Source: Amycolatopsis camponoti (GTDB lineage: Bacteria > Actinomycetota > Actinomycetes > Mycobacteriales > Pseudonocardiaceae). Taken from it: a stretch of 64,000 bases of DNA. A program made the translations under genes and the position numbers. Shown here piece by piece: positions 34,959-52,249 of this stretch (the stretch's first letter is position 1; each line of letters begins with the position of its first letter). The stretch is taken from positions 372,001 through 436,000 of the forward strand of contig NZ_CABVGP010000004.1 of the NCBI RefSeq assembly GCF_902497555.1. Direction: 5' to 3'. The notes beneath the pieces are model-generated. The model saw only the letters and a program-made list of their open reading frames with translations. It was not told the origin of the DNA and did no database searches.

Positions 34959-36776
34959 TCAGGGGGAGGAGAACGGGACGAGCAGTCCCGGGGGTGCGAA
35001 CAGCGGGTAGGTGACGAGCACGCCACCGCCGGTCCGGGCGACCGACGAGGGGCGGAACAGGTCGCGCTGGCCGGTGTAGAACGCGGCCGCGCCGTCTTCG
35101 CCGCCGGTCAGCAGGACCCGGCGGCGGGGTTGCCCGGCGGGGTCTTCGCCGGGGACCTCGGGGAACGCCGCGACCCGGACCGGTTCCAGGGCCGCGAGCG
35201 CGGCGATCGTCGCGATCAGCCGCGGGTCGACGCGGCCCGCGCGGAGCACGGCGGCGGCGTCCGGGGCGAAAGTGATGCGGGCCGACGCCTGGAGGGCCTC
35301 GCCGGCGTGGGCGCGCGCCGACGCTTCCGACGGCGCGGCCGGGTCGGCCGGCGGCAGGCCGAGGCGGGAGACGGTGATCTTGACCGCGGGGTCGGTGCCG
35401 AACACGGCGGTCGCGCCGGAGTTGGCGAAGGCGGCTTCGATCGCGGGATAGGCGCGGCGCAGGTCGGTCGCGTCGTCGGCGAAGACGGCCCACTCGGCGG
35501 GCGGGCAGGCGGCCGCGCACGCCGCGGGCGGGACGAGCATGCCGGTCGGCCAGCCTGCCTTGGCGAGCTCGGCCCAGGCGGCGTCGTCGACGAGCACGCG
35601 AGAGCCGGAAGCGTTGGCCCGCAACCACTCCTGCGCGTCCGCCAGCGGGCCGCCCCGGTCGGTCGTGGGCCGGAGGGCCGGGTAGCCGTACACCCAGCCG
35701 GCGGCCACGATCGCGACGAGGACGACCGCGGCGAGCACGACACCCTTCCCGGGCCGCCGGGCCGCTTCCCCGCGGTGGGCCGGGGCGCGCTGCCGGAGCA
35801 CGGCCTGCACGACGCCGGCCAGCAGCAGCGGCGTAACCGGCAGGAGCAGGGCGAGCACGGCGGTGTGCGGCACACCCGGCACAGCCAGGGTCGCGGCGAG
35901 CAGCAGGCCGGACACCGCGAACGGCCGCAGGGACGTCACGGCGAGCGCGGCGACCAGCGCGAAGGTCGACAGCACGGCCCACGCCGGGTCGAGCGCGACC
36001 CAGTCGGCGACCGACGGACGGCCCGCGGCCGCGAGGTGCGGCCGGAGGATCCCGGCCGCCGGGCCGAACGCGATGCCGAGCCCGAGGTTGAGCAGCACCG
36101 CCACCAGCGCGGCCCGCACGGGCGCGCGCCGCACCAGCAGCCAGCCGGCCGCGGGCAGGAAGAACAGCGCGAGCGGCGAGGTGAGCACCGCGGCCAGCAG
36201 GCAGACCGCGGCGTAGATGTCGTGCCGGATCCGCGCGTCGGGCCGGGTGACGAGCACCAGCGCGCCCAGCGCCCACACGACCGCCAGGTGCTCGACGACG
36301 ACGAGCCGCTGCAGGCCCAGGGCCAGCGGGGACGCCGCGAGCAGCACCACCGCGGCCGCCGACGCCCACCGCGTCAGGCCGAGCCGGCGCGCCAGCACCC
36401 ACAGCAGCACGGCACCGGCCACCGCGGCGACGAGCATCGTCTCCCGGACCGCGGCCAGTGCCGTCGCCGAGCGGCCGAACGCGTCCGAAACCATCGTGTA
36501 CGCCGAGAGCTGCCACCAGCCGAACGGGCTGACGCCGGCGCCGCCCGCGTCGGTGAACGGCGTGAAGTGGCCGAGCGCGTAGGCGTGGGCGACGTTCGCG
36601 GCTTCGGCGGGCAAGGCCGGGCTCGGCGCGGCGAGGTAGAGCACCCGCAGGCCGCCGGCGAGGGCCAGCAGGGCGAGCACGATGTCGAGCGACAGCAACC
36701 GGTGACCGGCCGCCGGCTCGGAAGGGGTCGCGGGGGAGCGGCCCGAGAACGTCGTCCCCCAGCTGTGCTGGGCCAT
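34959..36776 (-). CDS. Multi-spanning membrane glycosyltransferase-like protein (GT-C/ArnT-like)
   Basis: 605 residues: ten or more hydrophobic helices in the first 360 residues, then a large extracytoplasmic part (about 370-605). The first loop has PAEAANVAHAYALGHFTPFT, with the acidic residue placed as in polyprenol-sugar GT-C enzymes, and GLQRLVVVEHLAVVWAL follows. GT-C proteins transfer sugars from lipid carriers to proteins or glycans outside the membrane. Exact donor and acceptor are not visible. It heads the operon with the DUF4397 protein and the sortase, so modification of that surface protein is possible. Confidence 0.75.
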   Translation of the reverse strand: MAQHSWGTTFSGRSPATPSEPAAGHRLLSLDIVLALLALAGGLRVLYLAAPSPALPAEAANVAHAYALGHFTPFTDAGGAGVSPFGWWQLSAYTMVSDAFGRSATALAAVRETMLVAAVAGAVLLWVLARRLGLTRWASAAAVVLLAASPLALGLQRLVVVEHLAVVWALGALVLVTRPDARIRHDIYAAVCLLAAVLTSPLALFFLPAAGWLLVRRAPVRAALVAVLLNLGLGIAFGPAAGILRPHLAAAGRPSVADWVALDPAWAVLSTFALVAALAVTSLRPFAVSGLLLAATLAVPGVPHTAVLALLLPVTPLLLAGVVQAVLRQRAPAHRGEAARRPGKGVVLAAVVLVAIVAAGWVYGYPALRPTTDRGGPLADAQEWLRANASGSRVLVDDAAWAELAKAGWPTGMLVPPAACAAACPPAEWAVFADDATDLRRAYPAIEAAFANSGATAVFGTDPAVKITVSRLGLPPADPAAPSEASARAHAGEALQASARITFAPDAAAVLRAGRVDPRLIATIAALAALEPVRVAAFPEVPGEDPAGQPRRRVLLTGGEDGAAAFYTGQRDLFRPSSVARTGGGVLVTYPLFAPPGLLVPFSSP

Positions 36777-36871
36777 TCGACGGATCGTAGCCGCTCCCGA
36801 TCACCCGTCCAGCTCGGGACGGTTACGTCAGCCGGACGGCCTAGAGATCCGAAAAGCCTTGTCCCGCAAGA

Positions 36872-37657
36872 TTATTTCCGACTGTCCCGAGTGGATCCGG
36901 AGAGTGTCCGGGTCAACGCGAGTGCGACCGTGCGGACGGCGGGCGCGACCCGTTCGGTCCGCATCCGGTTGGCCCAGCCGGAGATCGAGACCGCGGCGAC
37001 CGCGACGCCGCGGGAGTCGAGCAGCGGGCTGGCCGCGCACACGACGCCGACGCCGGATTCCTCGCGTTCCAAGGCGATCCCGTCCTCCCGGACCCGGCTG
37101 AGCTGCCGGCGCAGCAGGCCGGGTGCGGTGATCGTCTTCGGGCTCATCCTGGGTAATCCGGCGTCGATCACCTCGTTCACCACGGATTCCGGAGAAAACG
37201 CGAGGATCGCCTTCCCGACTCCCGTGGCGTGCGCGGGGAACCGGCCGCCGATGCGCGACGGCAGCGTCGGCGCGTCCGGGCCGCGCAGCACGTCGAGGTA
37301 GACGACTTCGGTGCCTTCGAGGATGGCGAGGTGGACGGTGTTGCGCGTCGCTTCGCGGAGGTCGGCGAGGTACGGGCGAGCCGCTTCGACCAGCCCGCGC
37401 CGCGGTGAGGCCAGTTGGCCGATTTCGAACAACCGCAGCCCGAGCCGCACCGCGCCGTCCTCGCGGGTGAGCAGGCCGGTGTCGGCGAGGTGGCCCACCA
37501 GCCGGTGCACCGTCGTCTTCGCCAGCCCGGTCCGGCGGGCCAGCTCGGAGACGCCGAGGGCCTCGTCGCCCGGCCGGAAGGCTTCCAGGAGCGCGGCGAG
37601 CCGGGTCGCGACGAGACCGTCGCCGCTCGCGCCGTCGTTCCGCCCAGCGGTACGCAT
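36872..37657 (-). CDS. IclR-family transcriptional regulator
   Basis: 261 residues from the ATG at 37657. N-terminal winged helix (LGVSELARRTGLAKTTVHRL), then an IclR effector domain with ATRNTVHLAILEGTEVVYLD and FPAHATGVGKAILAF. IclR proteins control catabolic operons and bind small acids or aromatics. No catabolic gene adjoins it on the same strand; the closest neighbours are a TetR regulator and the glycosyltransferase operon, so its target is unknown. Confidence 0.92.
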   Translation of the reverse strand: MRTAGRNDGASGDGLVATRLAALLEAFRPGDEALGVSELARRTGLAKTTVHRLVGHLADTGLLTREDGAVRLGLRLFEIGQLASPRRGLVEAARPYLADLREATRNTVHLAILEGTEVVYLDVLRGPDAPTLPSRIGGRFPAHATGVGKAILAFSPESVVNEVIDAGLPRMSPKTITAPGLLRRQLSRVREDGIALEREESGVGVVCAASPLLDSRGVAVAAVSISGWANRMRTERVAPAVRTVALALTRTLSGSTRDSRK

Positions 37658-37709
37658 GGGTTGAGTGTGCCCGATCTTCCCCGCCAGTGTCACGAGGTCG
37701 GAGGTGAGG

Positions 37710-38300
37710 TCAGTGGTCGTCGGCGCCGAGCACGAGCCGCACGCAGTGGGCGACGAGCCGTTCGCGGGAAACCTTCAGCGAGCCGTCGAGGTAGGCGATG
37801 AAGACGTTGCTCAGCGCGCCGACCAGCCCGACGGCGACCATCTGCCGCTCTGTCTCGTCGCCGCGGGTCAGCTGCTCGCCGACGAGCGCGGCGAACACCG
37901 GCAGCAGGTGCAGGCCGCGGCGGGTCAGCGCGGGGTCGGTCAGCGGGGCGAGGAGCAGGATCCGGCCCCGCCGGGGATCGTCGACGATCAGCTCGACGAA
38001 CGCGCGCACGGCGTGCTCGGCCCGCAGCACCGGGGTCGGCGCGTCGCGGACCGCGTCCACCAGCGCTTGGCGCGCCTGCTCGCCGACGTGCTCGTAGACG
38101 GCGGCGACGAGCTCCTCGCGGTCGGCGAAGCTCTCGTAGAAGTACCGCTCGGTGAGCTTCGCGTGCCGGCACACCGCGCGCACGCTCGTCCCGGCCGAGC
38201 CTTCGGTGCCCAGCAGTTCGAGGCCCGCGGACACGAGCTGCTCGCGCCGCAGCGCCTTCCGGTCGTCCAGGGTCGTGCCCGCCCACGTGCGGCCCGGCAT
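37710..38300 (-). CDS. TetR-family repressor of the DUF2236/luciferase-like pair
   Basis: 196 residues from the ATG at 38300, with AGGAG five bases upstream. HTH visible in TSVRAVCRHAKLTERYFYES; the YFYESF form is common in TetR regulators of lipid and sterol genes. The gene is divergent from the DUF2236 gene, and the space between them carries a large inverted repeat (38315-38360), so it probably represses itself and the two genes to the right. Confidence 0.9.
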   Translation of the reverse strand: MPGRTWAGTTLDDRKALRREQLVSAGLELLGTEGSAGTSVRAVCRHAKLTERYFYESFADREELVAAVYEHVGEQARQALVDAVRDAPTPVLRAEHAVRAFVELIVDDPRRGRILLLAPLTDPALTRRGLHLLPVFAALVGEQLTRGDETERQMVAVGLVGALSNVFIAYLDGSLKVSRERLVAHCVRLVLGADDH

Positions 38301-38314
38301 GATCACTCCTCGGT

Positions 38315-38360
38315 TGACTACGGCTGTTGTCAGATCCTAGCCTGACAACAGCCGTAGTCA
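38315..38360. promoter_or_regulatory. Double TetR operator, 19-bp perfect inverted repeat
   Basis: TGACTACGGCTGTTGTCAG (38315-38333) and its exact complement CTGACAACAGCCGTAGTCA (38342-38360) are split by 8 bp. Each arm is itself an imperfect dyad of the form TGACnACnG-CnGTnGTCA, so two dimers could bind side by side. It sits between the divergent tetR and DUF2236 genes. Confidence 0.75.
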
Positions 38361-38387
38361 GTTCCGACTCGACGAGGAGAGCCGCCG

Positions 38388-39314
38388 ATGAGCAGGGAAT
38401 CGCCCGAACCCCTGGGTCCCGACTCGTTGACCTGGAAGTACTTCGGTGACTGGCGGGGCCTGCTCATCGCCCTGTGGGCCGGGTCGATGCAGAACATGCA
38501 CCCCGGCCTCGGCGCCGGCGTCGAGCAGCACTCGCGGTTCTTCGAGGAGCGCTGGCAGCGGCTGTTCCGCTCGCTCTACCCGATCGGCGGCGTCGTCTAC
38601 GACGGCCCGCGCGCCCACGCGACCGCGTTGCAGGTGCGCGGCTACCACGACCGCATCAAGGGCGTCGACGCTCGAGGCCGTCGCTACCACGCGCTCGATC
38701 CCGACACCTACTACTGGGCGCACTCCACGTTCTTCGTCAGCACGATCCTCATCGCCGACCACTTCATGGGCGGCATCGGCGAGGCAGAGAAGCGGCGGCT
38801 GTTCGACGAGCACGTCACGTGGTGGCGGATGTACGACCTGACGATGCGGCCGGTGCCGGAGAGCTGGGAGGACTTCCAGCGCTACTGGAAGCACATGTGC
38901 GCCGACGTCCTGGAGGACAACAAGGCCACCCGAGATGTCCTCGACCTCGGCGGGATCGCGAAGCCGCCGTTCCTGCCGTGGCTGCCGGACGCGCTCTGGC
39001 GCCCGGTGAGCGCGCTGATCGCGAAGAACTTCGTCTGGCTGACGACCGGGCTCTACGACCGCGAGATCCGCGACCTGCTCGGCCTGCGCTGGACCGGCCG
39101 CGACGCGCGTCGGCACCGGCGGGTCGGCCAGCTGATCAACGCCGTGTTCAAGCTCGTCCCGCACGACCGCCGCTACCACCCGCGGGCCCGGGCCGGCTGG
39201 CGGCGCGAGCGCGGCGAGGTGGCTCCGGACGCCGCCTTGGTCGAGACTCCACCCAGGAACCTGCCGCCGCTGTCGGAGCGGGGCAAGCCCGAGCACTACG
39301 CGCCGAACGTCTAG
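38388..39314 (+). CDS. DUF2236 (MpaB/latex-clearing-like) oxygenase-family protein
   Basis: 308 residues. Matches the DUF2236 pattern found in heme proteins such as latex-clearing oxygenase and MpaB: GLLIALWAGSMQNMHPGLGA, a central DPDTYYWAHSTFF with the conserved His, and a long helical C-terminal half. Members that have been studied oxidise unsaturated hydrocarbons or aldehydes; this protein's substrate is unknown. No signal peptide. First of two genes under the double TetR operator; the luciferase-like gene starts 9 bp after its stop. Confidence 0.85.
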   Translation: MSRESPEPLGPDSLTWKYFGDWRGLLIALWAGSMQNMHPGLGAGVEQHSRFFEERWQRLFRSLYPIGGVVYDGPRAHATALQVRGYHDRIKGVDARGRRYHALDPDTYYWAHSTFFVSTILIADHFMGGIGEAEKRRLFDEHVTWWRMYDLTMRPVPESWEDFQRYWKHMCADVLEDNKATRDVLDLGGIAKPPFLPWLPDALWRPVSALIAKNFVWLTTGLYDREIRDLLGLRWTGRDARRHRRVGQLINAVFKLVPHDRRYHPRARAGWRRERGEVAPDAALVETPPRNLPPLSERGKPEHYAPNV

Positions 39315-39323
39315 GAGGCATTC

Positions 39324-40349
39324 GTGAAGCTGGGATTCCACGTCGGGTACTGGGGCAGTGGCCCGACGCCGGGCGCACTGGAAGCGGTGCTCAAGGCCGA
39401 GGAGCTCGGCTTCGACTCGGTGTGGACGGCGGAGGCGTACGGCTCGGACGCGTTCACGACGCTGGCCTGGTACGGCGCGTCGACCAGCCGGATCCGGCTC
39501 GGGACCAACATCGTCCAGATGGCGGCGCGCACGCCGACCGCGACCGCGATGAGCGCGATGACGCTCGACCACCTCTCCGGCGGCCGGATGGTGCTCGGGC
39601 TCGGCGCGTCCGGCCCGCAGGTCGTCGAGGGCTGGTACGGCCAGCCGTACCCGAAGCCCCTCGCCCGGACGCGGGAGTACGTCGACATCGTCCGGCAGGT
39701 GATCGCCCGCGAAGCCCCGGTGACCCTGGACGGCCAGCACTTCCAGCTGCCGCTGAAGGGCGGCACCGGGCTCGGCAAGGCGCTGAAGCCGACGGTCCAC
39801 CCGCTGCGCAAGGAGATCCCGATCCACCTGGCCGCGGAGGGCCCGAAGAACGTCGCGCTGTCGGCGGAGATCGGCGACGGCTGGCTGCCGTTGTTCTTCT
39901 CGCCCAAGAGCAATGACTTCTACAAGGCGGCGCTGGCGGAAGGCTTCGCCCGTGAAGGCGCCCGGCACACCCTGGAGACGTTCGAGGTGCCGTGCTCGAT
40001 CCCGGTGATCGTGCACGACGACGTCGAAGAGGCGGCTTCGTGGATCAAGCCGTCGCTCGCGCTCTACATCGGCGGGATGGGCGCGAAGAGCGTCAACTTC
40101 CACCACGACGTCTTCGCCCGGCTGGGTTACGAGGACGTGGCGGACAAGGTCCAGGAGCTGTACCTCGCGGGCCGCAAGGACGAGGCGACCGCGGCGATCC
40201 CGACGTCACTCGTGGAGGACACGTCGCTGATCGGGCCGGCCGCGAAGATCCGCGACGAGCTGCAGGCCTGGGAGGAAACGGTGGTCACCCAGCTGCTGCT
40301 CCGCGGGGACGCGGCGACGCTGACGAAGATCGCCGAAGCCCTCGGCTGA
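39324..40349 (+). CDS. F420-dependent luciferase-like oxidoreductase
   Basis: 341 residues from a GTG with GGAGG upstream. LLM family of the F420 type: MKLGFHVGYWGSG start, GFDSVWTAEAYGSDAFTTLAW, GTNIVQMAARTPTATAMSAM and LGLGASGPQVVEGWYG. Such enzymes transfer hydride to or from F420 on alcohols, aldehydes or unsaturated lipids in the cytosol. It forms an operon with the DUF2236 gene, suggesting two steps on one hydrophobic substrate. The ceramidase operon follows in the same direction after a 119-bp gap with its own regulatory dyad. Confidence 0.9.
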   Translation: MKLGFHVGYWGSGPTPGALEAVLKAEELGFDSVWTAEAYGSDAFTTLAWYGASTSRIRLGTNIVQMAARTPTATAMSAMTLDHLSGGRMVLGLGASGPQVVEGWYGQPYPKPLARTREYVDIVRQVIAREAPVTLDGQHFQLPLKGGTGLGKALKPTVHPLRKEIPIHLAAEGPKNVALSAEIGDGWLPLFFSPKSNDFYKAALAEGFAREGARHTLETFEVPCSIPVIVHDDVEEAASWIKPSLALYIGGMGAKSVNFHHDVFARLGYEDVADKVQELYLAGRKDEATAAIPTSLVEDTSLIGPAAKIRDELQAWEETVVTQLLLRGDAATLTKIAEALG

Positions 40350-40396
40350 CCGGCGAATCGACGGCGCCCGGGCGGCTTGACGGCACTTTTGTCGGG

Positions 40397-40425
40397 TTGC
40401 CCGGGTGGCGGCGCTCACGTACGGT
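40397..40425 (+). promoter_or_regulatory. Candidate promoter of the sphingolipid operon
   Basis: TTGCCC (40397-40402), 17 bp, TACGGT (40420-40425). The -10 hexamer coincides with the first bases of the long dyad at 40420-40469, as expected if a repressor bound to the dyad blocks the promoter. Confidence 0.45.
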
Positions 40426-40469
40426 CCCCGACTAACGCGAAAGTCGTTCACGTTAGTCGGGAGACCGTA
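40420..40469 (+). promoter_or_regulatory. Long inverted repeat overlapping the ceramidase ribosome site and start codon
   Basis: TACGGTCCCCGACTAACG (40420-40437) pairs with CGTTAGTCGGGAGACCGTA (40451-40469) with one unpaired base and a 13-nt centre. The right arm contains the Shine-Dalgarno GGGAG, and its last base is the A of the ATG. It could be a repressor operator over the -10 region, or an RNA hairpin that hides the ribosome site. Confidence 0.65.
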
Positions 40470-42463
40470 TGCGGGTGAGTCGTCGTACCGTCCTGGCCGG
40501 AGCCACCGCGCTCCCGTTCGCCGCCGTGGCCAGACCCGCCGCGGCCGCTTCCTCGCTCAAGGTGGGCGTCGGGATCGGCGACGTCACCGGGCCCGCCGCC
40601 GAGAACGGCATGATGGGCTACTCCATGCCCCAGCAGCAGACCGCCGGCATCCACCTGCGCACCCGGGCCCGCGCCTACATCGTCGACGACGGCGCGAAGC
40701 GGATCGTCTTCGTCACCGCCGAGCTGGGCGCGCTGTTCCAGTCGGTCCACCAGGGCGTGCTGCGCGAGCTGGCCCGGAAGTACGGCGACCGCTACACCGA
40801 GCAGAACGTCCTGCTCAACGCCACCCACACGCATTCGGCGTGCGGCGGCGACTCGCACTACGCCGCCTACGACCTGGCGATCCTCGGCTTCCAGCAGCAG
40901 ACGTACGACGCCGTCGTCGCCGGGATCGTCGACGCGATCGGCCGGGCGCACGAGAACCTGAAGCCCGGCGAGCTGACCCTCGGCCGCACCGAGCTGACCG
41001 AGGCCAGCGCCAACCGGTCCCGCGTCGCCTTCGAACTGAACCCCGACAAGGACCACTTCCCGCTCTCGATCGACCCCGCGGTCACCGTGCTGCGGTTCCG
41101 CCAAGGCGGCCAGGACGTCGGCGCGATCACCTGGTTCGCCACGCACGGCACGTCGATGAGCAACGGCAACCACCTGATCAGCAGCGACAACAAGGGTTAC
41201 GCCGCCTACACGTGGGAGCACGACCACGCCGGCGTCCGCTACCTCGACGGCCCGCCCGGGTTCGTCGCCGCGTTCGCCCAGACCAACTCCGGCGACATGA
41301 CGCCGAACCTCGACCTGAAGCCCGGCACGCCCGAGACGGAGTTCGAGAACACCCGGCGCATCGGCGAACTCCAGTTCCAGGCGGCGAAACGCGCGTTCGA
41401 CGCGGCGAGCGAGACCGTAACCGGCGGCGTCGACCATCGGCTGACCTATGTGGACATGTCCGCCGTGGACGTCGACCCCCGGTTCACCCCGGACGGACGT
41501 CCGCACCGCACCTGCACCGCCGCGATCGGCGTCTCGATGCTCGCCGGCAGCACCGAAGACGGGCCCGGCCTGCCGCTGCCCGAAGGCGTCAAGAACCCCT
41601 TCATCGACTGGCTCGGCGGCATCGACGCGCCGATCCCGCGGGCCCTCGCCGACGCGCAGGCGCCGAAGGTCGTCGCGGTGCCGTTCGGCGCGATGAAGCC
41701 CTACCCGTGGGCGCCGGAGGTGCTGCCGCTGCAGATTGTCCGGATCGGACAGCTGCACCTCGTCGCCGGGCCGGCGGAGTACACCATCGTCGCCGGGCTG
41801 CGGATCCGGAAGACCGTCGCCGAGGCGCTGGGCGTGCCGCTGGAGAACGTCCTGATGCAGGGCTACTCCAACGCCTACAGCCAGTACGTCACGACGCCCG
41901 AGGAGTACGACTCCCAGCAGTACGAAGGCGCGTCGACGCTCTTCGGCCGCTACACGCTGCCCGCGTACCAGCAGGAGTTCGGGAAGCTGGCCGCCGCGAT
42001 GAAGGCGGGGACGCCGGTGCCGCACGGGCCGGTCCCGCGCGACCTGCGCGGCAGGCTCGTGAACTTCCAGCCCGGCGTCGTCTTCGACAGCGCGCCGCTG
42101 CTGAAGAACTTCGGCGACGTGGTCACCGACGCCAACCGCAGCTACCGGCGCGGCGAACAGGTCTCGGTCGCGTTCGTGACCGGCCACCCGAAGAACGACC
42201 TCCGCCGCGACGGCACGTTCCTCGAGGTCCAGCGGTACGTGGACGGCCGCTGGGTCCGCCACGCCGACGACGGCGACTGGGCGACGAAGTTCCGGTGGAC
42301 GCGGACGTTCGTGAGCGAGTCACGCGCCGAGGTCACCTGGGACATCCCCGCGAACACCCCGGCCGGCAAGTACCGCGTCGTCCACTCCGGAGCGTGGAAG
42401 CACGGGCTCACCGGAGCCATCGCCCAGCTCGGCGGGACCTCCCGCGCCTTCGTCGTCTCGTGA
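40469..42463 (+). CDS. Secreted neutral ceramidase (Tat signal)
   Basis: 664 residues. N-terminal SRRTVL twin-arginine signal with cleavage near ARPAAAA, so it should be exported folded. The body fits neutral/alkaline non-lysosomal ceramidase along its length: zinc ligands in NATHTHSACGG (His120, His122) and WFATHGTSM (His226), GPAEYTIVAG (Glu) and GYSNAYSQYVTT (Tyr). Ceramidases cut ceramide to sphingosine and a fatty acid. The family's nucleophile motif GDxSPN reads GDMTPN (residues 275-280), a Ser-to-Thr change. First gene of an operon with a sphingomyelinase-type enzyme, a transporter and an S1P-lyase-like enzyme, 17 bp before the next gene. Confidence 0.92.
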   Translation: MRVSRRTVLAGATALPFAAVARPAAAASSLKVGVGIGDVTGPAAENGMMGYSMPQQQTAGIHLRTRARAYIVDDGAKRIVFVTAELGALFQSVHQGVLRELARKYGDRYTEQNVLLNATHTHSACGGDSHYAAYDLAILGFQQQTYDAVVAGIVDAIGRAHENLKPGELTLGRTELTEASANRSRVAFELNPDKDHFPLSIDPAVTVLRFRQGGQDVGAITWFATHGTSMSNGNHLISSDNKGYAAYTWEHDHAGVRYLDGPPGFVAAFAQTNSGDMTPNLDLKPGTPETEFENTRRIGELQFQAAKRAFDAASETVTGGVDHRLTYVDMSAVDVDPRFTPDGRPHRTCTAAIGVSMLAGSTEDGPGLPLPEGVKNPFIDWLGGIDAPIPRALADAQAPKVVAVPFGAMKPYPWAPEVLPLQIVRIGQLHLVAGPAEYTIVAGLRIRKTVAEALGVPLENVLMQGYSNAYSQYVTTPEEYDSQQYEGASTLFGRYTLPAYQQEFGKLAAAMKAGTPVPHGPVPRDLRGRLVNFQPGVVFDSAPLLKNFGDVVTDANRSYRRGEQVSVAFVTGHPKNDLRRDGTFLEVQRYVDGRWVRHADDGDWATKFRWTRTFVSESRAEVTWDIPANTPAGKYRVVHSGAWKHGLTGAIAQLGGTSRAFVVS

Positions 42464-42480
42464 TCCGGAAAGGACCCCGC

Positions 42481-43428
42481 GTGCGCAGGACCGCCCTTCT
42501 CGCCGCCGTCGTCACCGCCTTCGCCCTCGTCGCCACGCCCGCCCGGGCCGCGGACGCGGCCGTGAGCGTGCTCAGCTTCAACCTCTGGCAGCTGCCGTGG
42601 ATCGCCAACCCGAACACCTCGGACAAGGAGGCCCGGGCCCAGGCCGCCGAGCGCGTCATCCGCGCGCAGGACACCGACGTCGTCGTCCTCGAAGAGGCCT
42701 TCAGCGCCCAGGCCGAGGGCCTGCGCGACCGGCTCGTGGACGCGTATCCCTTCCGGACGCCGCTGGTCGGCCAGTCCTGCTCGACGTCGCCGGGCTGGAC
42801 GTCGGTGAGCGGCACCTGCTCGAACTCGCCGATCGTCGTCAACGGCGGCGTGACCGTACTGAGCAAGTACCCGATCACCGAGAAGCACCAGCTCGTCTAC
42901 CGCACCTCCTACTCCGGCACCGCCGACTACCTGTCCAACAAGGGTGCCGCGCTGGTCCGGATCTTCGCCCACGGCAAGGCGCTCTGGCTCGCGGGCACGC
43001 ACCTGCAGGCCGACGAAGCGCCCGACACGCTGCCGAAAGCGCACCAGGTGCGGATGGCGCAGCTCGGCGAGCTGCGCGACCTCGTCGCCGCGCGCGTCCC
43101 GGCGGGCGACGCCGTGGCCGTCGCCGGGGACCTCAACATCGAGTACTGGGCCGGGCAGGACCGTCGCGACGCCGCCGGCCGCACCCAGGCCGAGCAGGGC
43201 GCGGCCGCGCTCGGCGGGCCCCTGCGGACGGCGGGCGCGGGGGAGTACACCTTCGACGCCGTCACCAACCCGGACGCGGCGAAGTCCGTCCCGGCGACCT
43301 ACCGCGACTCGCTGGACTACGTGGGCTCGGTGCGACGCGCCGAGGTCGGCCCGGTACGGCTGGTGCATTACGACGGTGGCACGATTCCCTCCGACCACTA
43401 CCCGGTGCGGGCCGAGATCCACTACTGA
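42481..43428 (+). CDS. Secreted neutral sphingomyelinase-type phosphodiesterase
   Basis: 315 residues from a GTG with GGAAAGGA upstream. Sec signal peptide (about 1-23, ending ATPARA). Endonuclease/exonuclease/phosphatase fold with residues in the order of bacterial sphingomyelinases: LSFNLWQLPW, VVLEEAF, SNSPIVVNGGVTVLSKYPI, NKGAALVRI, GTHLQA (His174), VAGDLNI (Asp217, Asn219) and SDHYPV (Asp304, His305). It should hydrolyse sphingomyelin, or a related phospholipid, outside the cell to ceramide and phosphocholine, providing the ceramidase substrate. A preference for glycerophospholipids cannot be excluded. MFS gene begins 33 bp later. Confidence 0.88.
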   Translation: MRRTALLAAVVTAFALVATPARAADAAVSVLSFNLWQLPWIANPNTSDKEARAQAAERVIRAQDTDVVVLEEAFSAQAEGLRDRLVDAYPFRTPLVGQSCSTSPGWTSVSGTCSNSPIVVNGGVTVLSKYPITEKHQLVYRTSYSGTADYLSNKGAALVRIFAHGKALWLAGTHLQADEAPDTLPKAHQVRMAQLGELRDLVAARVPAGDAVAVAGDLNIEYWAGQDRRDAAGRTQAEQGAAALGGPLRTAGAGEYTFDAVTNPDAAKSVPATYRDSLDYVGSVRRAEVGPVRLVHYDGGTIPSDHYPVRAEIHY

Positions 43429-43461
43429 TCGCCTCATCGGATTCGTTCTGCGAGGAGAACC

Positions 43462-44775
43462 ATGACGACGCTGTCCGGCCGGACGCGGTTCAGGTATTCG
43501 CTCGGCTCGTTCGTCACCGGGTCCTTCGGCACAGTCCCCGGCCTCGTGCTGGTCAAGTACCTCACCGACACGATGGCCGTGCCCGCCGGGTGGGCCGCCG
43601 CGATCGTGTTCGTGCCCAAGGCCTGGGACGTCCTGTTCAACCCGATCGCCGGCCGGATGTCGGACGCGGACCTGCTCAAGACCGGCAGCCGCCGCCGCTT
43701 CCTGCTCATCGGCGGCATCGGCGTCGCGATCCTGTTCGCGGCGATGTTCGCCCACCCCGGGTTCGGCACCCCGCTGCCGGACGCGCTGTACGTCGCGATC
43801 ACGTTCGCCCTCTGCGCCACGGCGTACGCGCTGTTCCAGGTGCCGTTCAACGCCCTGCCCGCCGAGCTCACCTCGTCGGGGGCGGAGCGCACCAAGCTCA
43901 CCAGCGTCCGCATCGGCGTGCTGGCCGTGACGATCCTGATCTGCGGCGGCGGCGCGCCCGCGATCAGCACCGGCATCGGCGGGGTCGCCGGCTACCGGGT
44001 GATGGCCGTCGTGATCGGGCTGATCGTGCTGGCCGCGACGCTGCTGGTGTACTTCGGCCTCAAGGACGCGCCGGTCGGCTCGCTGCGGCCGAACACCGTG
44101 AACCTGAAAGAACTGGTCCGCACGCTCGCCGCCTGGCGCCCGTTCCGCTGGCTGCTGGGCTCGTACTTCATCCAGGCACTGGGCATCGGCACGGTGCTCG
44201 CCGCGATCCCGTTCTTCGCCCAGCGCATCCTCGGCGACGAGGGCTACGGGACGATCATCTTCGTGATCTTCGTCGGCCCGGCGCTGGTCACCATGCCGCT
44301 GTGGCCGCGCCTCGGCGACCGCGTCGGCAAGCTCAACGGCTTCCGGATCGCCACGGCGGCGTTCGCGCTGGGCCTGCTCGGCCTGGTCTTCGCCCAGTCG
44401 CTGCCGCTGGCCGTGACGCTGGTCTTCGTCGCGCTGTGCGGCGTCGGGTACGCCGGGATCTCGGTGTTCCCGCTCGCCATCCTGCCCGACCTGATCACCG
44501 CCGAGGAGGAGCGCACCGGCGAGACCCGGGCGGGGATCGCGGCCGGGGTCTGGACCGCGGGGGAGACGCTCGGGCTGGCCTTCGGCGGCGGCCTGTGGGC
44601 GATCATCCTCGCGTTCGGCGGGTACGTTTCGAGCACCGACGCGACCGCGGCCCAGCCGCACAGCGCGATCGTCGCGATCCTGTTCGGCGCGTCGATCATC
44701 CCCGGCGTGCTCATCGCGCTGGCCCTGCCGCTGCTGCGGCGCAAGGTGCTGGAGCCGCGTCATGAACCCGCCTGA
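43462..44775 (+). CDS. GPH/MFSD2-like transporter, possible sphingoid base importer
   Basis: 437 residues, about twelve membrane helices, with AGGAG before the ATG. The sequence pattern is of the MelB/GPH branch of the major facilitator superfamily: AIVFVPKAWDVLFNPIAGRM with the conserved Asp, and ALFQVPFNALPAELT. The same branch contains the animal lysolipid and sphingosine-1-phosphate carriers MFSD2A and MFSD2B. Gene order (secreted lipid hydrolases before, S1P-lyase-like after, 14-nt overlap with the latter) suggests uptake of sphingosine or a related product. Sugar transport remains the general alternative for this branch. Confidence 0.85.
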   Translation: MTTLSGRTRFRYSLGSFVTGSFGTVPGLVLVKYLTDTMAVPAGWAAAIVFVPKAWDVLFNPIAGRMSDADLLKTGSRRRFLLIGGIGVAILFAAMFAHPGFGTPLPDALYVAITFALCATAYALFQVPFNALPAELTSSGAERTKLTSVRIGVLAVTILICGGGAPAISTGIGGVAGYRVMAVVIGLIVLAATLLVYFGLKDAPVGSLRPNTVNLKELVRTLAAWRPFRWLLGSYFIQALGIGTVLAAIPFFAQRILGDEGYGTIIFVIFVGPALVTMPLWPRLGDRVGKLNGFRIATAAFALGLLGLVFAQSLPLAVTLVFVALCGVGYAGISVFPLAILPDLITAEEERTGETRAGIAAGVWTAGETLGLAFGGGLWAIILAFGGYVSSTDATAAQPHSAIVAILFGASIIPGVLIALALPLLRRKVLEPRHEPA

Positions 44776-46177
44776 GGACGTCCTCGCGGCACTACGGGAG
44801 CTGCGCGCGGGTGACCTGCCGACGCACGGCGGCCGCACGCTCGCCTACGTCTACGACAGCGGGTTGTCCGAAGTGGACACCCTTGGGGCGGCCGCGCACG
44901 CGCTGGCGTCGTCGGCGAACGGCCTCGACCCGACGGCGTTCCCGAGCTTGCTGCGGATGGAGAACGACCTCGTCTCGGCCGCTTCCGCGTTGCTCGGCGA
45001 CGTTCCGGGCGTGGTCGGCTCGGTGACGTCCGGCGGTACGGAGTCGTGCCTGCTGGCGGTGCTCGCCGCGCGGGACGCGCACCCTTCGGTCGCGTCGCCG
45101 TCGATCGTGCTGCCGACCACCGCGCACGCCGCGTTCCACAAGGCGGCGCACCTGTTCGGGCTGCGGCGGATCGACGTCCCGGTCGACCCGGTGACGTTCC
45201 GCGCCGACCCGGCGGCGATGGCCGCGGCGATCGACGACTCGACGGTGCTGGTGGTGGCGAGCGCGCCGTCGTACGCGCACGGCGTCCTCGATCCGGTGGC
45301 CGAGATCGCGGCCGTGGCCCTCGAACGCGGCGTCCGGATGCACGTGGACGCGTGCATCGGCGGCTGGGTGCTGCCGTACTTCGCGCGCCTCGGCGCCGAC
45401 GTCCCGCCGTTCGACTTCCGCGTCCCCGGCGTCACGAGCATCTCGGTGGACCTGCACAAGTACGCGTACTGCCCGAAGGGCACGTCGGTGCTGCTGCACG
45501 CGTCGGCGGAACTGCGGCGCTCGCACTACTTCGCGAGCGCGGCCTGGCCGGGTTACACGATGCTGAACACGACGATCCAGAGCACGCGCTCGGGCGGCCC
45601 GCTCGCGGCGGCGTGGGCGGTGGTCCGGCACCTCGGCGAGGACGGCTACCTGCAGCTGGCTTCGTCCACGCGGGAAGCGGTTTCCCGGATCCGGGCCGGC
45701 ATCGGGGAACTGCCGGGTCTGCGGGTGCTCGGCGACCCGGTGTCGACGCTGATCGCGTTCACCGGCGACGACGGCTTCGACCTGTTCACGGTGGCGGACG
45801 AGATGAAGACGCGCGGCTGGTACGTCCAGCCGCAGTTCGCTTTCGAAGCGTCCCCGGTGAACTTGCACCTGACGGTGACGGCGGCCAACCGCGGCAGCGA
45901 GAAGGAGTTCCTGACGGACCTGGCGGCTTCTCTGGATGCCGCACGCGCGGCGGGACCGGTGGTGATCGACCCCGCCGTGGCCGACTTCGTCGCGGCGCTG
46001 GATCCGGCGACGCTGACGTCGGAACAGTTCGCGGGGCTGCTGGCGGCGGCGGGCCTGGGCGGCGCGGCCGGTCTCCCGGACCGGATGGCCCCGATCAACG
46101 CGCTCCTCGCAACGGCACCGGCGCCGTTGCGGGAGCGGTTGCTGCTGGAGTTCCTGGGCGCGCTCTACACGCCCTGA
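44762..46177 (+). CDS. Sphingosine-1-phosphate-lyase-like PLP enzyme
   Basis: 471 residues. Group II PLP decarboxylase fold with S1P-lyase hallmarks: SVTSGGTESCLLAVLAARD, PTTAHAAFHKA (His122), VDACIGGWVLP (Asp196) and the PLP lysine in SVDLHKYAYCPKGTSV (Lys233); in glutamate or aromatic decarboxylases the lysine context differs. S1P lyase splits phosphorylated sphingoid bases into a long-chain aldehyde and phosphoethanolamine. The N-terminal membrane helix of the eukaryotic enzyme is absent, so this form is soluble. It overlaps the transporter gene by 14 nt, so translation is probably coupled. No sphingosine kinase is encoded nearby. Confidence 0.88.
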   Translation: MNPPEDVLAALRELRAGDLPTHGGRTLAYVYDSGLSEVDTLGAAAHALASSANGLDPTAFPSLLRMENDLVSAASALLGDVPGVVGSVTSGGTESCLLAVLAARDAHPSVASPSIVLPTTAHAAFHKAAHLFGLRRIDVPVDPVTFRADPAAMAAAIDDSTVLVVASAPSYAHGVLDPVAEIAAVALERGVRMHVDACIGGWVLPYFARLGADVPPFDFRVPGVTSISVDLHKYAYCPKGTSVLLHASAELRRSHYFASAAWPGYTMLNTTIQSTRSGGPLAAAWAVVRHLGEDGYLQLASSTREAVSRIRAGIGELPGLRVLGDPVSTLIAFTGDDGFDLFTVADEMKTRGWYVQPQFAFEASPVNLHLTVTAANRGSEKEFLTDLAASLDAARAAGPVVIDPAVADFVAALDPATLTSEQFAGLLAAAGLGGAAGLPDRMAPINALLATAPAPLRERLLLEFLGALYTP

Positions 46178-46181
46178 AAGC

Positions 46182-46454
46182 TCACTGGTCGCGGGAAGCC
46201 AGCCCTTCGGGAGCTGATTTGACGGCCGCGTGGATCGCGTCCGCCAGCGCCAGCGCGTCCTCCTCGGTCAACTCCAACGCGACCCGTGCCGAAGCGCCCA
46301 GGCCCGGGTTGCGGAAGTCGATGTTCACCGTGTGGCCGTACGGCGCGTGGACCGGGTGGTCGACGTACACGGTTCCCTCGTTGAGGCGGAACCAGCCGCG
46401 GGCGCCCTTGCCGCTGCCTTCGAGCGCGAACTTCTCGGTCAGGTAAGTGCACAT
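46182..46454 (-). CDS. Small conserved actinobacterial protein (DUF6295-like)
   Basis: 90 residues starting MCTYLTEKFALEGSGKGARG, with YVDHPVHAPYGHTVNIDF in the middle and an acidic, helical end (LTEEDALALADAIHAAVK). I recognise the pattern as a small conserved protein but no function. It lies 12 bp after the dienelactone hydrolase gene on the same strand, and its 3' end is 4 bp from the convergent S1P-lyase-like gene. Confidence 0.75.
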   Translation of the reverse strand: MCTYLTEKFALEGSGKGARGWFRLNEGTVYVDHPVHAPYGHTVNIDFRNPGLGASARVALELTEEDALALADAIHAAVKSAPEGLASRDQ

Positions 46455-46466
46455 GGCGAAGTCCTC

Positions 46467-47207
46467 TCAGACCGTCAGGGTGCGGGAGTAGAAGTCGAAG
46501 ATGCGTTCCCAGCCGTCCTTCGCGGCTTCCGGCCGGTAGCTCGGGCGGTCGACGGCGAAGAACGAGTGGCCGGCACCCGCGTACGTGTGGAACTCGTGCG
46601 GCTTGCCCAGCTTCTCCAGCTCGGCCGCCAGGACGGCGACCTCGTCCGGGCCGGGGAACTGGTCGTCGGCGCCGAAGAGGCCCAGCAGCGGGCACGACAG
46701 CCGGGACGCCAGGCCGAGCAGCGGCTTCATCTGCTTCATCGCCTCGGGCGGGTCGTTGACGACGAACGCGCCGTAGCAGTCGACCGCCGCGTCGATGTCC
46801 AGGGAACAACCCGAAAGGAACGCCTGGCGGCCGCCCGAGCAGTGCCCGATGACCCCGATGCGGCCGTTCGCGTTCTCGAGCGCGCGCAGGTGGTCCGCCG
46901 CGCCCGAGACGTCACCGACGAGCCGGTCGTCCGGGACGCCACCGGCCGCGCGGACCGTGGCGGCCGCGTCGTCCGGGTCCGCGCCCGGTGCTTCGCGCGT
47001 GTACAGGTTGGGGCACAGCGCGTTGTAGCCCTCGACGGCGAAGCGGCGGACCATCTCCTTCGTCGCCGCGTCGTAGCCGGGCATGTGGTGGATCACCACG
47101 ACGCCGCCGCGGGGCGTCGTGTCGGTGGGTTTGGCCAGGTAGGCCTCGAGCTCGTCACCGCCGTGGCCGGTGATGGTGACGGTCCCGGCGACGATCTCGT
47201 CGGTCAT
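46467..47207 (-). CDS. Dienelactone hydrolase family protein
   Basis: 246 residues from the ATG at 47207, with GGAG upstream. Alpha/beta hydrolase with the dienelactone-hydrolase triad: nucleophile Cys in IGHCSGG, Asp in FGADDQFPG and His in YAGAGHSFF. Carboxymethylenebutenolidase-type enzymes open lactones in aromatic degradation or act on other esters in the cytosol. The start overlaps the end of the MFS gene (ATGA), so it is co-transcribed with a drug-type exporter and a MarR regulator, which suggests detoxification. Confidence 0.9.
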   Translation of the reverse strand: MTDEIVAGTVTITGHGGDELEAYLAKPTDTTPRGGVVVIHHMPGYDAATKEMVRRFAVEGYNALCPNLYTREAPGADPDDAAATVRAAGGVPDDRLVGDVSGAADHLRALENANGRIGVIGHCSGGRQAFLSGCSLDIDAAVDCYGAFVVNDPPEAMKQMKPLLGLASRLSCPLLGLFGADDQFPGPDEVAVLAAELEKLGKPHEFHTYAGAGHSFFAVDRPSYRPEAAKDGWERIFDFYSRTLTV

Positions 47208-48895
47208 CGGTTCTCCTTCGATCCCTCGGGGGTGTGGAAGTAACGCGCGCCGCGGGAAGCGGAGGCCACCGCGGCGACGACGGCCATCACCGCGGCCGCC
47301 GTGAACACGACCACCAGGCCGTGGTGGAACGGACCGGAGACCAGCTGCGGGAAGAACTCCCCGCCGGTCAGGGTCGAGCGGTCGGCCGGGGACAGCCCGG
47401 CCAGGACGTCCGGGCCGAGCAGGTGCCCGACCGGGTTGCTGCCGAGGAACGCGGCGAACAGCGTGCTCACCGGCGGCAGCTGGGCGACGCCGTCCGCGAC
47501 GGACGCCGGGACGCCGTGGGCCTGCAACCCGCTGGTCAACGTCTGCGGCAACGAAGACGCCAGCCCGGCGATCATCAGCGAGAAGAACACGCCGATCGAC
47601 AACGACGTCCCGGAGTTCTGGAACGTCGCCCGCATCCCGGAGGCGACCCCGCGCTGCTCGGTCGGCACACTGCTCATGATCGCCGAGGTGTTGGGCGCGG
47701 AGAACATGCCCTGGCCGATCCCGCTGAGGACGAGCAGCGCGGCGAACGCCGGATAGGGGAAGTCCACCGGCAACGCCAGCAACCCGAGGAACGCGGCCGC
47801 GACCAGCAAGAGCCCGCCGGTGGAGAACAGCCGGGCCCCGAACCGGTCGGACAGGTAGCCCGACACCGGACCCGCGACGAGGAACCCGACGGTCAGCGGC
47901 AGCAGGTAGATGCCCGCCCACAGCGGGGTGCGCTCGTAGTCGTAGCCGTGCAGGGGCAGCCAGATCCCCTGCAGCCAGATGATGAGCATGAACTGCATGC
48001 CACCCCGGGCGACCGAGGTCAGCAGCGCGGCGACGTTGCCGGCGGCGAACGCGCGGATCTTGAACAGCGAAAGCTGGAACATCGGCGCCGCGACGCGGGT
48101 CTCGATGAGGCCGAACAGCAGGAGCAGCAGCACGCCGGCGCCGATCCCGCCGAGCACCCACGGACTGCCCCAGCCGGTCGCGGCGCCGCCGTAGGGCTGG
48201 ATGCCGTAGGTGATCGCGGCCAGCAGCAACGCGGTCCCGGCGGCGAAGGTGACGTTGCCGCCCCAGTCGACCTTCGCGCGCTTGGGCGTCCCGACTTCGC
48301 GGAGGCTGCGGATCGACCAGATCGTGCCGAGCAACCCGAACGGGACGCTCACCCAGAACACGGCACGCCAATCGATCTCCGCGAGCAACCCGCCGACGAC
48401 CAGGCCGAGGAACTGGCCGGCCAGCGCGGTGATCTGGTTGACGCCGAGCGCCATGCCGCGTTGTTCCGCGGGGAAGGCGTCGGTGAGGATCGCGGCCGAG
48501 TTCGCCGTCAGCATCGAGCCGCCGACGGCTTGGACGATCCGCCAGCCGATCAGCCACAGCGCGCCGCCGCCCGCGTGGAACGGGTCGAACGACAGCGCGA
48601 CCGACGCGGCGCTGAAGACGACGAAGCCGAGGTTGTACATCTTGACGCGGCCGAACATGTCGCCGAGCCGCCCGAGCGTCACCACCAGCACGGCCTGGAC
48701 CAGCAGGTAGCCGAGGATCATCCAGAGCAGGTAGCCGATGTTGCCCGGGGCGAGGGGGTCGAGCCCGATGCCGCGGAAGATCGCGGGCAGCGAGATGATG
48801 ACGATCGAGCCGTCGAGCGCGGACATCAGCACGCCGAGCGTGGTGTTGGAGAGGGCGACCCACTTGTAGCGGCCGCTCGTGAGCTGCGTCGTCAC
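47204..48895 (-). CDS. 14-helix MFS drug exporter (DHA2/EmrB type)
   Basis: 563 residues from a GTG at 48895. First helix with LMSALDGSIVIISLPAI, LGRLGDMFGRVKMYNLGF loop, WRIVQAVGGSMLTANSAAIL (motif C region) and about 14 membrane spans, as in EmrB/QacA proton-driven exporters. The GTG overlaps the stop of the marR gene (GTGA), and the dienelactone hydrolase follows with a 4-nt overlap. The operon looks like a MarR-controlled export and detoxification unit; the compound is unknown. Confidence 0.92.
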   Translation of the reverse strand: MTTQLTSGRYKWVALSNTTLGVLMSALDGSIVIISLPAIFRGIGLDPLAPGNIGYLLWMILGYLLVQAVLVVTLGRLGDMFGRVKMYNLGFVVFSAASVALSFDPFHAGGGALWLIGWRIVQAVGGSMLTANSAAILTDAFPAEQRGMALGVNQITALAGQFLGLVVGGLLAEIDWRAVFWVSVPFGLLGTIWSIRSLREVGTPKRAKVDWGGNVTFAAGTALLLAAITYGIQPYGGAATGWGSPWVLGGIGAGVLLLLLFGLIETRVAAPMFQLSLFKIRAFAAGNVAALLTSVARGGMQFMLIIWLQGIWLPLHGYDYERTPLWAGIYLLPLTVGFLVAGPVSGYLSDRFGARLFSTGGLLLVAAAFLGLLALPVDFPYPAFAALLVLSGIGQGMFSAPNTSAIMSSVPTEQRGVASGMRATFQNSGTSLSIGVFFSLMIAGLASSLPQTLTSGLQAHGVPASVADGVAQLPPVSTLFAAFLGSNPVGHLLGPDVLAGLSPADRSTLTGGEFFPQLVSGPFHHGLVVVFTAAAVMAVVAAVASASRGARYFHTPEGSKENR

Positions 48896-49326
48896 AGCTC
48901 GTCCGCCAGCCGCTCGATCAGCGGGATGGCCGCGATCAGCTCGCGCTGCTCGGCCGCGGTGAACTTCTCGGCCAGCGCGGTCGCCATCTTCTCCGTCGTC
49001 CGCGAACGGCGGTCGGTGAGCAGCTTGACGCCGGTTTCGGTGACCGACATCAGTACCTTGCGGCCGTCGGAGTCGTCCTTGCGCCGCTCGACGAGCCCGC
49101 GGTCGACCAGCCCGGCCAGGGTCACACCCATGGCCTGCGGCTTGACGCGTTCGAGGTCGGCCAGACAGCCCGGCGTGGCCGGGCCCTCCCGGTCGAGCCG
49201 GGAGAGCACCGACCGTTCGGGCAGCGTCAGCTCCCCGACGACGTACCCCTGCCGCAGCCGCCGGATCACCCGGCCCAGCGCGACGCGCAGGTCGGCGCTG
49301 GCCTGGAGGAGGTCCTCGTCCGTCAC
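48892..49326 (-). CDS. MarR-family regulator
   Basis: About 144 residues from the GTG at 49326; a TTG three codons upstream (49335) is an alternative. Winged-helix pattern: LTLPERSVLSRLDREGPATP, LERVKPQAMGVTLAGLVDRG and the wing VERRKDDSDGRKVLMSVTE. First gene of the marR-MFS-hydrolase operon, so it likely controls its own operon in answer to the exported compound. The -10 hexamer ends about 7 bp before the GTG, which fits a leaderless mRNA. Confidence 0.9.
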   Translation of the reverse strand: MTDEDLLQASADLRVALGRVIRRLRQGYVVGELTLPERSVLSRLDREGPATPGCLADLERVKPQAMGVTLAGLVDRGLVERRKDDSDGRKVLMSVTETGVKLLTDRRSRTTEKMATALAEKFTAAEQRELIAAIPLIERLADEL

Positions 49327-49333
49327 GATCGTC

Positions 49334-49364
49334 AACCTAGACTGATAAACCTGGGTTGATCAAC
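49334..49364 (-). promoter_or_regulatory. Promoter and palindrome ahead of marR
   Basis: On the minus strand, TTGATC and TAGGTT are 18 bp apart (about 49362 down to 49334). The -35 lies inside the palindrome GTTGATCAAC (49355-49364), a likely MarR binding site. Confidence 0.5.
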
Positions 49365-49403
49365 TCGGACGGACCGGCCGTTATCGGGTGAGCCGGGAGC
49401 TTT

Positions 49404-49455
49404 CGGGTCGTGAGTGAGAAACAGTGTTCTAACCCGGTTTCTCACTCACGACCCG
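49404..49455. repeat. 52-bp palindromic element, copy 1 (probable terminator)
   Basis: Perfect 19-bp arms: CGGGTCGTGAGTGAGAAAC (49404-49422) and its complement (49437-49455), with a 14-nt loop AGTGTTCTAACCCG. It begins one base after the stop of the zinc operon's last gene. A near-identical element occurs at 58762-58809, so it is a repeated sequence family as well as a hairpin. Confidence 0.85.
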
Positions 49456-49456
49456 C

Positions 49457-50512
49457 CTACGCGAGAGGAGCGTGGACCGGGTCCCACTCGGGAAACGGGT
49501 CCGGCCCGGTCGGCTCACCCAGGCAGCCGTCCAGGGCCTTCAGGAGTGCTTCCCCCGCCAGATCGACGCCGATGAACACCAGCTCCTGCCGCGGTTCCGC
49601 GGCCATCCCGTGCGGCTCGAACCGGGCCACCGCGCCGGCCTGCGACCACAGCCGGGTCACCCCGGGCCGGGACGCCAGCGCGAAGAACCCCTTGGACCGC
49701 ACCACGGTCCCGAACTCGCCCGAGTCCAGCCGCCGCGTCACGAAGTCCCACAAAGCCGCCGGGTCGAACGCCCGCGACGCGCGGAAGACCACGCTGGAGA
49801 TCCCGTACTCCTCGGTCTCCGGCACGTGGTCCCCGTTCAGCTCGGCCACCCACCCCGGCGCCTCCTGGGCCCGTTCGGCGTCGTAGCGGCCGGTGCCGAA
49901 GACCCGGTCGAGGGGCACCTTCCCGAAGCTTCCGGTGACGACGTCCGCGGCGGGGTTCAGCCGTCGCAGCGTCGCCACCAGACGGTCGACGTCCGGGACG
50001 AGGTCCGTCTTGTTGAGCAGCAGTACGTCGGCGAACTCGACCTGGTCGACCAGCAGGTCGCTGACCGTCCGCTCGTCGCCGTCGTACTGGTCGAGCCGCC
50101 GCTCCACCAGCGAGTCGCCCGCCGCCAGCTCACGCGCGAAGTTCGCCGCGTCCACCACCGTCACCATCGTGTCGAGGTGGGCGACGGCGCCCAGGAAGGT
50201 GAACGTCGCCGCCACCGGCATCGGCTCGGAGATCCCGCTCGACTCGATCAGCACGTGGTCGAAACGGCCGTCCGAACACAGCGCGGCCACCTCCTCCAGG
50301 AGATCCTCGCGCAGGGTGCAGCAGATGCACCCGTTGGTCAGCTCGACGAGGCGCTCCTGCGAGCGCACGAGCGCCGCGTCGACGTTGACCTCGCTCATGT
50401 CGTTGACGATCACCGCCACCCGCAGCCCCGCGCGATTCGCGAGGATGTGGTTGAGCAGCGTCGTCTTGCCGGCGCCGAGGAAGCCGGACAGCACCGTGAC
50501 CGGGACCGTCAC
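49457..50512 (-). CDS. CobW/COG0523 GTPase, probable zinc metallochaperone
   Basis: 351 residues from a GTG that overlaps the rpmF stop by 4 nt. Complete GTPase motifs: Walker [14 protein letters not shown], the CxCC metal motif [21 protein letters not shown] and [11 protein letters not shown]0523 proteins of low-zinc operons hand scarce zinc to essential enzymes. Last gene of the minus-strand zinc-starvation operon, followed immediately by the palindromic element. Intact motifs contrast with its degenerate paralogue at the head of the same operon. Confidence 0.9.
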
Positions 50513-52171: not shown

Positions 52172-52213
52172 TGCGGCTCCAGGAATACGGGCGGGGTACG
52201 GTGCGTAGAGTAA

Positions 52214-52236: not shown

Positions 52237-52249
52237 CTCGGGAGGGTCC

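Follow-up and report, generated by a model that had tools for sequence, protein, structure and literature searches.

Does one locus of the soil actinomycete Amycolatopsis camponoti encode the means to take apart sphingolipids of the animal or fungal type, and would a sphingosine kinase be needed for it? The question arises from four open reading frames (ORFs) on the forward strand, at 40469-46177 of a 64,000-nt stretch of contig NZ_CABVGP010000004.1 (the window throughout this text), which encode, in this order, a ceramidase, a sphingomyelinase, a carrier and a lyase dependent on pyridoxal phosphate (PLP). The original prediction had described them as an operon for sphingolipid degradation in which the imported base is split after phosphorylation. 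The operon is real, and in the reading to which we give about half of our confidence it serves sphingolipid scavenging, its lyase most likely acting on the unphosphorylated base with no kinase needed.

According to this proposal, extracellular sphingomyelin would be cleaved by the sphingomyelinase to ceramide and phosphocholine, and the ceramide would be hydrolysed, likewise outside the cell, to a fatty acid and sphingosine by the ceramidase. The MFSD2-like carrier would then bring the sphingoid base into the cell, where retro-aldol cleavage by the PLP lyase would yield a long-chain aldehyde and an ethanolamine compound. If the base is cleaved unphosphorylated, this compound would be ethanolamine instead of phosphoethanolamine, and a kinase would be unnecessary. 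The genes present and their order, their families and folds, the substitutions in the lyase pocket, the association with the carrier and the deletion scars are observed, and from these the enzyme activities, the transport direction and a substrate free of phosphate are deduced.

Layout and family membership of the four genes

The predicted ORF positions, the gaps of 17 and 33 nt and the subsequent 14-nt overlap of carrier and lyase genes were reproduced exactly; an alternative in-frame GTG for the sphingomyelinase gene lies at 42460. Ten further genomes carry the identical four-gene order, and a recurrence of this kind is not chance. All four predicted families were confirmed by profile, PDB-sequence and structure-model searches, which were in agreement (structure models covered the carrier and the lyase), and genomic context outside the window was taken from the genomes of relatives. 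The nearest proteins to the four are nearly all from Amycolatopsis.

Both the N- and the C-terminal domain of neutral ceramidases were recognized in the first protein (PF04734, E 8.6e-175; PF17048, E 5.4e-52), which matched PDB 2zws with E 3.9e-189. On the NCBIfam equivalog NF041649 it scored 669 bits, below the cut-off of 1200, and it is therefore classed as a member of the neutral-ceramidase family and not as that equivalog. The His motifs ATHTH/ATHSH and WFATH of the Zn site, within which we presume the individual metal ligands, are present in 18/18 rows. The residue preceding Pro in the QTN.GDM.PN motif, which we take to be the active-site Ser274 of the Pseudomonas aeruginosa ceramidase, is Ser in 14 rows and Thr in four (the window, L012, L058 and its duplicate L011). 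The phosphodiesterase matched PF03372 as well as the sphingomyelin phosphodiesterase profile TIGR03395 (E 2.3e-33), and as its 115.8 bits are under the equivalog cut-off of 248.2 it is classed as sphingomyelinase-type. A glycerophospholipid or DNase type would have spoken against the original prediction; each of the eight proteins matched among PDB sequences is a sphingomyelinase or the beta-hemolysin sphingomyelinase (7cne, E 6.9e-29; 1zwx; 3k55; 2ddr). The DNase-I-like motifs N, E, H, D-x-N and S-D-H, presumably catalytic in the roles we assign to them, occur in 13/13 rows (two duplicates). By eye, leaders of both predicted kinds are visible, a twin-arginine motif for Tat export of the ceramidase (MRVSRRTVLAG) and a Sec-like leader at the N-terminus of the sphingomyelinase.

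The carrier belongs to MFS_2 by profile (PF13347, E 9.9e-76) and by fold, and MFSD2A, a lysolipid carrier, was the best match to its structure model; on TIGR00792, the NCBIfam profile of GPH symporters, it reached 186 bits, under the cut-off of 231. The MFS_2-type fold is common to the eukaryotic lysolipid and sphingosine-1-phosphate (S1P) carriers MFSD2A and MFSD2B and to bacterial MelB, at identities to the window carrier of ~20%. At the position of the Na+ ligand Asp59 of MelB, the window carrier and its relatives have an invariant Asn60 (21/21 rows). MFSD2A imports lysolipid, and import of the sphingoid base, including its direction, is what we predict for the window carrier from sequence.

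In the fourth protein (PF00282, E 1.4e-17) we recognized a fold type I PLP enzyme with the C-terminal extension of S1P lyases (EC 4.1.2.27). Its PLP residues K233, H122, D196 and C198 correspond to Lys311, His201, Asp274 and Cys276 of StSPL, the enzyme of Symbiobacterium thermophilum, and both by sequence and by fold of the structure model it groups with S1P lyases and not, as would have contradicted the prediction, with glutamate or aromatic decarboxylases.

The phosphate pocket, the paired carrier and the kinase

Five residues, Y105, H129, A103, N126 and K317, are listed as binding the substrate phosphate in S1P lyase (PMC6148460, Table 3). Mapped through ungapped alignment stretches, Tyr105, Asn126 and Lys317 are retained in the window lyase as Y31, N53 and K239, whereas Asp56 stands for His129 and Tyr29 for Ala103; Burkholderia S1PL2021 has Gln and Thr at these two positions. 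The window lyase thus has fold, PLP residues, C-terminal extension and three of five phosphate contacts in common with StSPL and S1PL2021, but unlike them it has an MFS carrier partner and is encoded alongside secreted hydrolases. Owing to the altered phosphate pocket we refer to an S1P-lyase-like subfamily and not to an S1P lyase.

Tyr29 and Asp56 were found in 117 of 134 lyase sequences (132 loci, chosen and not randomly drawn, plus the window and the additional copy of locus L098). They are constant across this D56 clade (117/117), and none of the remaining 17 lyases from the order combines the two; these carry Gln, Asn or Ser at position 56, eight of them Gln like the Burkholderia enzyme. 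In a FastTree tree, computed after removal of four duplicate loci and without the trait columns, D56 sequences make up one side of a single branch (113 rows out of 130, with 128 different rows in the whole set), with a long-branch warning attached. The lyase of L160 (genome G028) combines Tyr29 with Ser56, no carrier was found at its locus, and it is a possible intermediate toward the D56 clade.

The carrier gene stands directly before the lyase gene on the same strand in 80/80 loci (the best 80 of at least 589 relatives; in L075 the carrier is seen as two short matches), with a median spacing of -11.5 nt for extrapolated starts. It is present in 115 of 116 D56-type loci, six of which are duplicate records, with a distance of 3.3 kb in one case, and it is absent from all 17 non-D56 lyase loci (tblastn, E <= 1e-8; loci spanning 5-19 kb). 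The single D56 locus without a carrier, L191 (genome G259), carries a lyase gene interrupted by an internal TGA, apparently a loss of the pair. In Nocardioides ferulae (L098) a tandem pair of lyase copies stands behind a single carrier.

S1P lyases are said to require the substrate phosphate, as stated for the rat enzyme (PMC6148460). For Burkholderia S1PL2021 a minor activity on sphingosine, 8%, is reported (PMC5234717), which indicates that the retro-aldol chemistry works without phosphate. Judged from the pocket changes, a phosphate-free substrate would be the more economical reading. The window and 135 loci were searched for a linked kinase with 25 strand-correct ORF queries drawn from 27 loci, and the positive control was detected. 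The window and 129 of the 135 loci yielded no gene of the diacylglycerol kinase (DAGK) type, whose family we take to be the likely kin of bacterial sphingosine kinase. Only in six loci, all of family f16, does a DAGK gene follow the lyase on its strand, at a distance of 7-8 kb; this is too far for the same operon, yet the gene is a conserved neighbour there. Other kinase families were sought only among a few Pfam-scanned neighbours, with a single hit, an amino-acid kinase that carries a PUA domain and is encoded on the opposite strand (L189). With no linked DAGK-type kinase and an altered pocket, the claim that the base is split after phosphorylation is not supported, and the missing kinase, originally called a clear gap, may be no gap given the altered pocket. 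A DAGK-like gene elsewhere in the genome, which had been proposed as a check, was indeed found in 6/6 relatives' genomes, with 3-8 family matches in each.

Distribution and loss of the secreted hydrolases

Besides the best 80 relatives, the neighbourhood survey covered 12 relatives' loci, 40 loci from the order spanning the identity range, and three more. The carrier-lyase pair occurs in genera including Amycolatopsis, Prauserella, Saccharopolyspora, Saccharothrix, Actinophytocola, Nocardioides, Kribbella and Janibacter, and in Frankiales. The predicted joint conservation of the neighbours stood for carrier and lyase; it failed for the ceramidase, which is part of the cluster in 10 of the best 80 loci only, all from Amycolatopsis and genomes of the same family, and whose surroundings show deletion scars. 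A ceramidase before the pair is also found in early-branching lineages, and in L229, from another genus, it lies 11 kb off on the opposite strand. The window and 10 other genomes have the two hydrolase genes in intact form, and six loci have a ceramidase without an intact sphingomyelinase.

In 16 distinct genomes without the sphingomyelinase gene, remnants of it lie between the genes of the carrier and of an F420-dependent oxidoreductase upstream (Table 1). These scars comprise 57-159 aligned columns to the coding 3' end with 75-91% identity and score 49-180, against maxima of 26-41 over 20 mononucleotide shuffles per locus; one scar-bearing genome, L058, retains the ceramidase. On a 44-row tree, built by a quick method, they appear within the clade of the window itself, next to intact operons, and no fewer than four changes are needed to account for the intact state. 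No scar above shuffle level was observed in twelve hydrolase-free loci with the oxidoreductase or in the ceramidase-only loci L021, L077 and L078 (the scan left out L227 and L228). Matches 1-3 points over the best shuffle (L072, L080, L085, L093 and L195) were not counted, nor was one within the ceramidase of L077 (48 vs 42 in shuffles). In four Prauserella loci (L072, L080, L089 and L093) the best match, at shuffle level, falls on the same spot of the sphingomyelinase 3' end, and eroded scars are possible there; L055 and L057 have gaps of 1.7-1.9 kb. The idea that the hydrolases are a recent add-on was rejected, since the scars indicate loss.

As the loci had been found via the lyase, retention of the lyase in them is no evidence, and draws based on kinship were used instead. 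Among 12 same-genus genomes drawn in this way, 11 have a full-length lyase and seven a ceramidase, and the lyase-free genome (G002) is also without ceramidase; the order sample, which overlaps this draw, likewise gave lyase in 11 and ceramidase in seven of 11 same-genus genomes. The simplest reading would be that the secreted, shareable enzymes were lost repeatedly while private uptake and cleavage were kept; identical scars would result from drift or a change of diet. Tentatively, and with somewhat less than even confidence, we propose that the D56 clade across the Actinobacteria is a kinase-free sphingosine lyase with its own MFSD2-like importer, and that its secreted part in Amycolatopsis is a public good, repeatedly deleted while the private part is kept.

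Upstream of the unit, the TetR, MpaB-type and F420 genes join it among the best 80 loci only in Amycolatopsis, Prauserella and Qaidamihabitans, and additionally in L195. The first inverted repeat of Table 1 is probably the TetR operator; a repeat with a TTGTCA..TGACAA core precedes MpaB in 9 of 14 relatives, another repeat does so in two, and none was found in three. The second, an unrelated palindrome, is probably the operator or promoter of the four-gene unit, which is probably transcribed from a promoter of its own. This repeat is near-identical in L012 and L058, and L066, L070 and L078 have different palindromes before the ceramidase with, by eye, a common TGAA-n5-TTCA centre. Exact copies of CGACTAACG in the window are two only, the arms before the ceramidase, and at one mismatch it is not enriched there (11 vs 15.6 expected). 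Possibly, the MpaB/F420 pair handles the long-chain aldehyde. Within 36000-50000 Rfam gave nothing at gathering scores, and at 49457-52315 two CobW-type GTPase genes (PF02492, PF07683) lie in a row on the minus strand.

Table 1 Features of the four-gene unit and of its upstream region, in positions of the window.
Feature	Position	Strand	Remarks
TetR-family regulator, divergent from MpaB	37710..38306	-	PF00440 E 4.9e-8; syntenic in Amycolatopsis/Prauserella loci
Perfect 19-bp inverted repeat, 8 nt between arms	38315..38360	.	between TetR and MpaB
MpaB/latex-clearing-type oxygenase	38388..39314	+	PF09995 E 1e-68; conserved neighbour
F420-dependent LLM-class oxidoreductase, Rv3520c subfamily	39324..40349	+	TIGR03559 486 bits vs 335 cut-off; conserved neighbour
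Inverted repeat directly before ceramidase start, 15-nt arms, 93% complementary	40420..40469	.	
Neutral ceramidase, twin-arginine leader, predicted secreted	40469..42463	+	664 aa; PF04734/PF17048; PDB 2zws
Sphingomyelinase C-type phosphodiesterase, predicted secreted	42481..43428	+	GTG start; PDB 7cne, 1zwx, 3k55, 2ddr
MFSD2/GPH-type transporter, predicted sphingoid-base importer	43462..44775	+	437 aa; MFS_2 PF13347
S1P-lyase-like PLP enzyme, Y29/D56 subfamily	44762..46177	+	471 aa; PF00282

Competing readings and significance

Several findings weigh against a scavenging operon with a kinase-free lyase. Both hydrolases stay under their equivalog cut-offs, DAGK-family genes exist in all genomes checked and near the f16 lyases, and three of the five phosphate contacts, Lys included, are kept in a pocket to which both subunits contribute, the structure model being that of a monomer. 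Furthermore, neither ceramidase nor a window-like sphingomyelinase lies within the stretch examined in 70 of the best 80 loci, and in the order lyase and ceramidase co-occur as by chance (25 genomes observed vs 23.6 expected, from 119 with lyase and 59 with ceramidase among 298). In family f15 none of 44 lyase-bearing genomes has a ceramidase, and in the window's own family 15 ceramidase-bearing genomes, of other genera, have no lyase at E <= 1e-60. Since genome-level co-occurrence is absent and f16 has its kinase genes, both the scavenging reading and its extension to the D56 clade are weakened. For the same reasons weight is gained by the proposal that the pair naturally acts on a different 2-amino-3-hydroxy compound, such as a bacterial amino alcohol or a 1-deoxy base, the hydrolases being an Amycolatopsis-specific extension. 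The neighbours in scanned loci, uninformative or housekeeping, fit this proposal, and Pfam scans of a few of them gave no substrate hint in Nocardioides/Aeromicrobium, Saccharothrix, Actinophytocola, Frankiales or f15. We nevertheless consider it rather unlikely, as two sphingolipid enzymes directly precede the pair in Amycolatopsis, a ceramidase does so in early-branching lineages, and by fold the two proteins of the pair most resemble S1P lyase and a lysolipid carrier.

On balance unlikely, if a serious contender, is the same operon with an ordinary S1P lyase, in which an unlinked DAGK/YegS-type kinase would phosphorylate the imported sphingosine and the pocket changes would be neutral. The DAGK genes, the retained Y31, N53 and K239 and a position 129 that is variable already (Gln in Burkholderia) are consistent with it, but the constancy of Tyr29 and Asp56 in the D56 clade, their not being found together in the order's other lyases and the outcome of the linked-kinase search argue against it. 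Improbable, in our view, is a role in detoxification, with a carrier that expels toxic sphingosine or a lyase that destroys what enters: a purely defensive cell has no evident reason to secrete sphingosine-making enzymes, and MFSD2A is an importer of lysolipid. The pair is retained where the hydrolases were lost, however, and sphingosine is reported to kill mycobacteria (PMC12078450) and to inhibit other bacteria (PMC11893366). An amino-acid decarboxylase, as many relatives are named in databases, was rejected as very improbable; the window enzyme scored 199 bits on TIGR03812 (MfnA), though under the 299-bit cut-off, but L167, a Burkholderia-type S1P lyase of this order (5k1r, E 8e-154), scores higher with 224 bits, and S1P lyases lead by sequence and fold.

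Among known systems, a secreted ceramidase is tied to sphingosine use or resistance in the sphingosine response of P. aeruginosa (ceramidase, SphA, SphBCD, SphR), for which a ceramidase-SphR link is reported (PMC5150637). The paper on its sphBC genes (PMC11893366) reports a different chemistry, not yet resolved there, and in the relevant part names S1P lyase only in a reference title. Tenacibaculum maritimum, too, has a secreted sphingomyelinase and a secreted ceramidase in one genome, but at the unlinked loci MARIT_1748 and MARIT_2033, described as toxins in a passage of PMC5561996 that mentions no sphingolipid lyase or carrier. Among the Creative Commons-licensed PMC papers listed (the top 10-20 where a search was broad), judged by title or start of the abstract, we found no ceramidase-sphingomyelinase-carrier-lyase operon and no carrier-lyase pair, and in that literature no description of a Y29/D56 lyase subfamily.

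The wider finding is a lyase subfamily that is paired with a carrier and whose phosphate pocket is altered, together with the repeated erosion of the secreted half of its pathway. If the proposed function is true, a large actinobacterial clade would possess a second route of sphingolipid breakdown, and a function would be assigned to genes now named 'decarboxylase-like' or 'aminotransferase'. The locus would moreover offer a natural test of public-good loss among soil bacteria.

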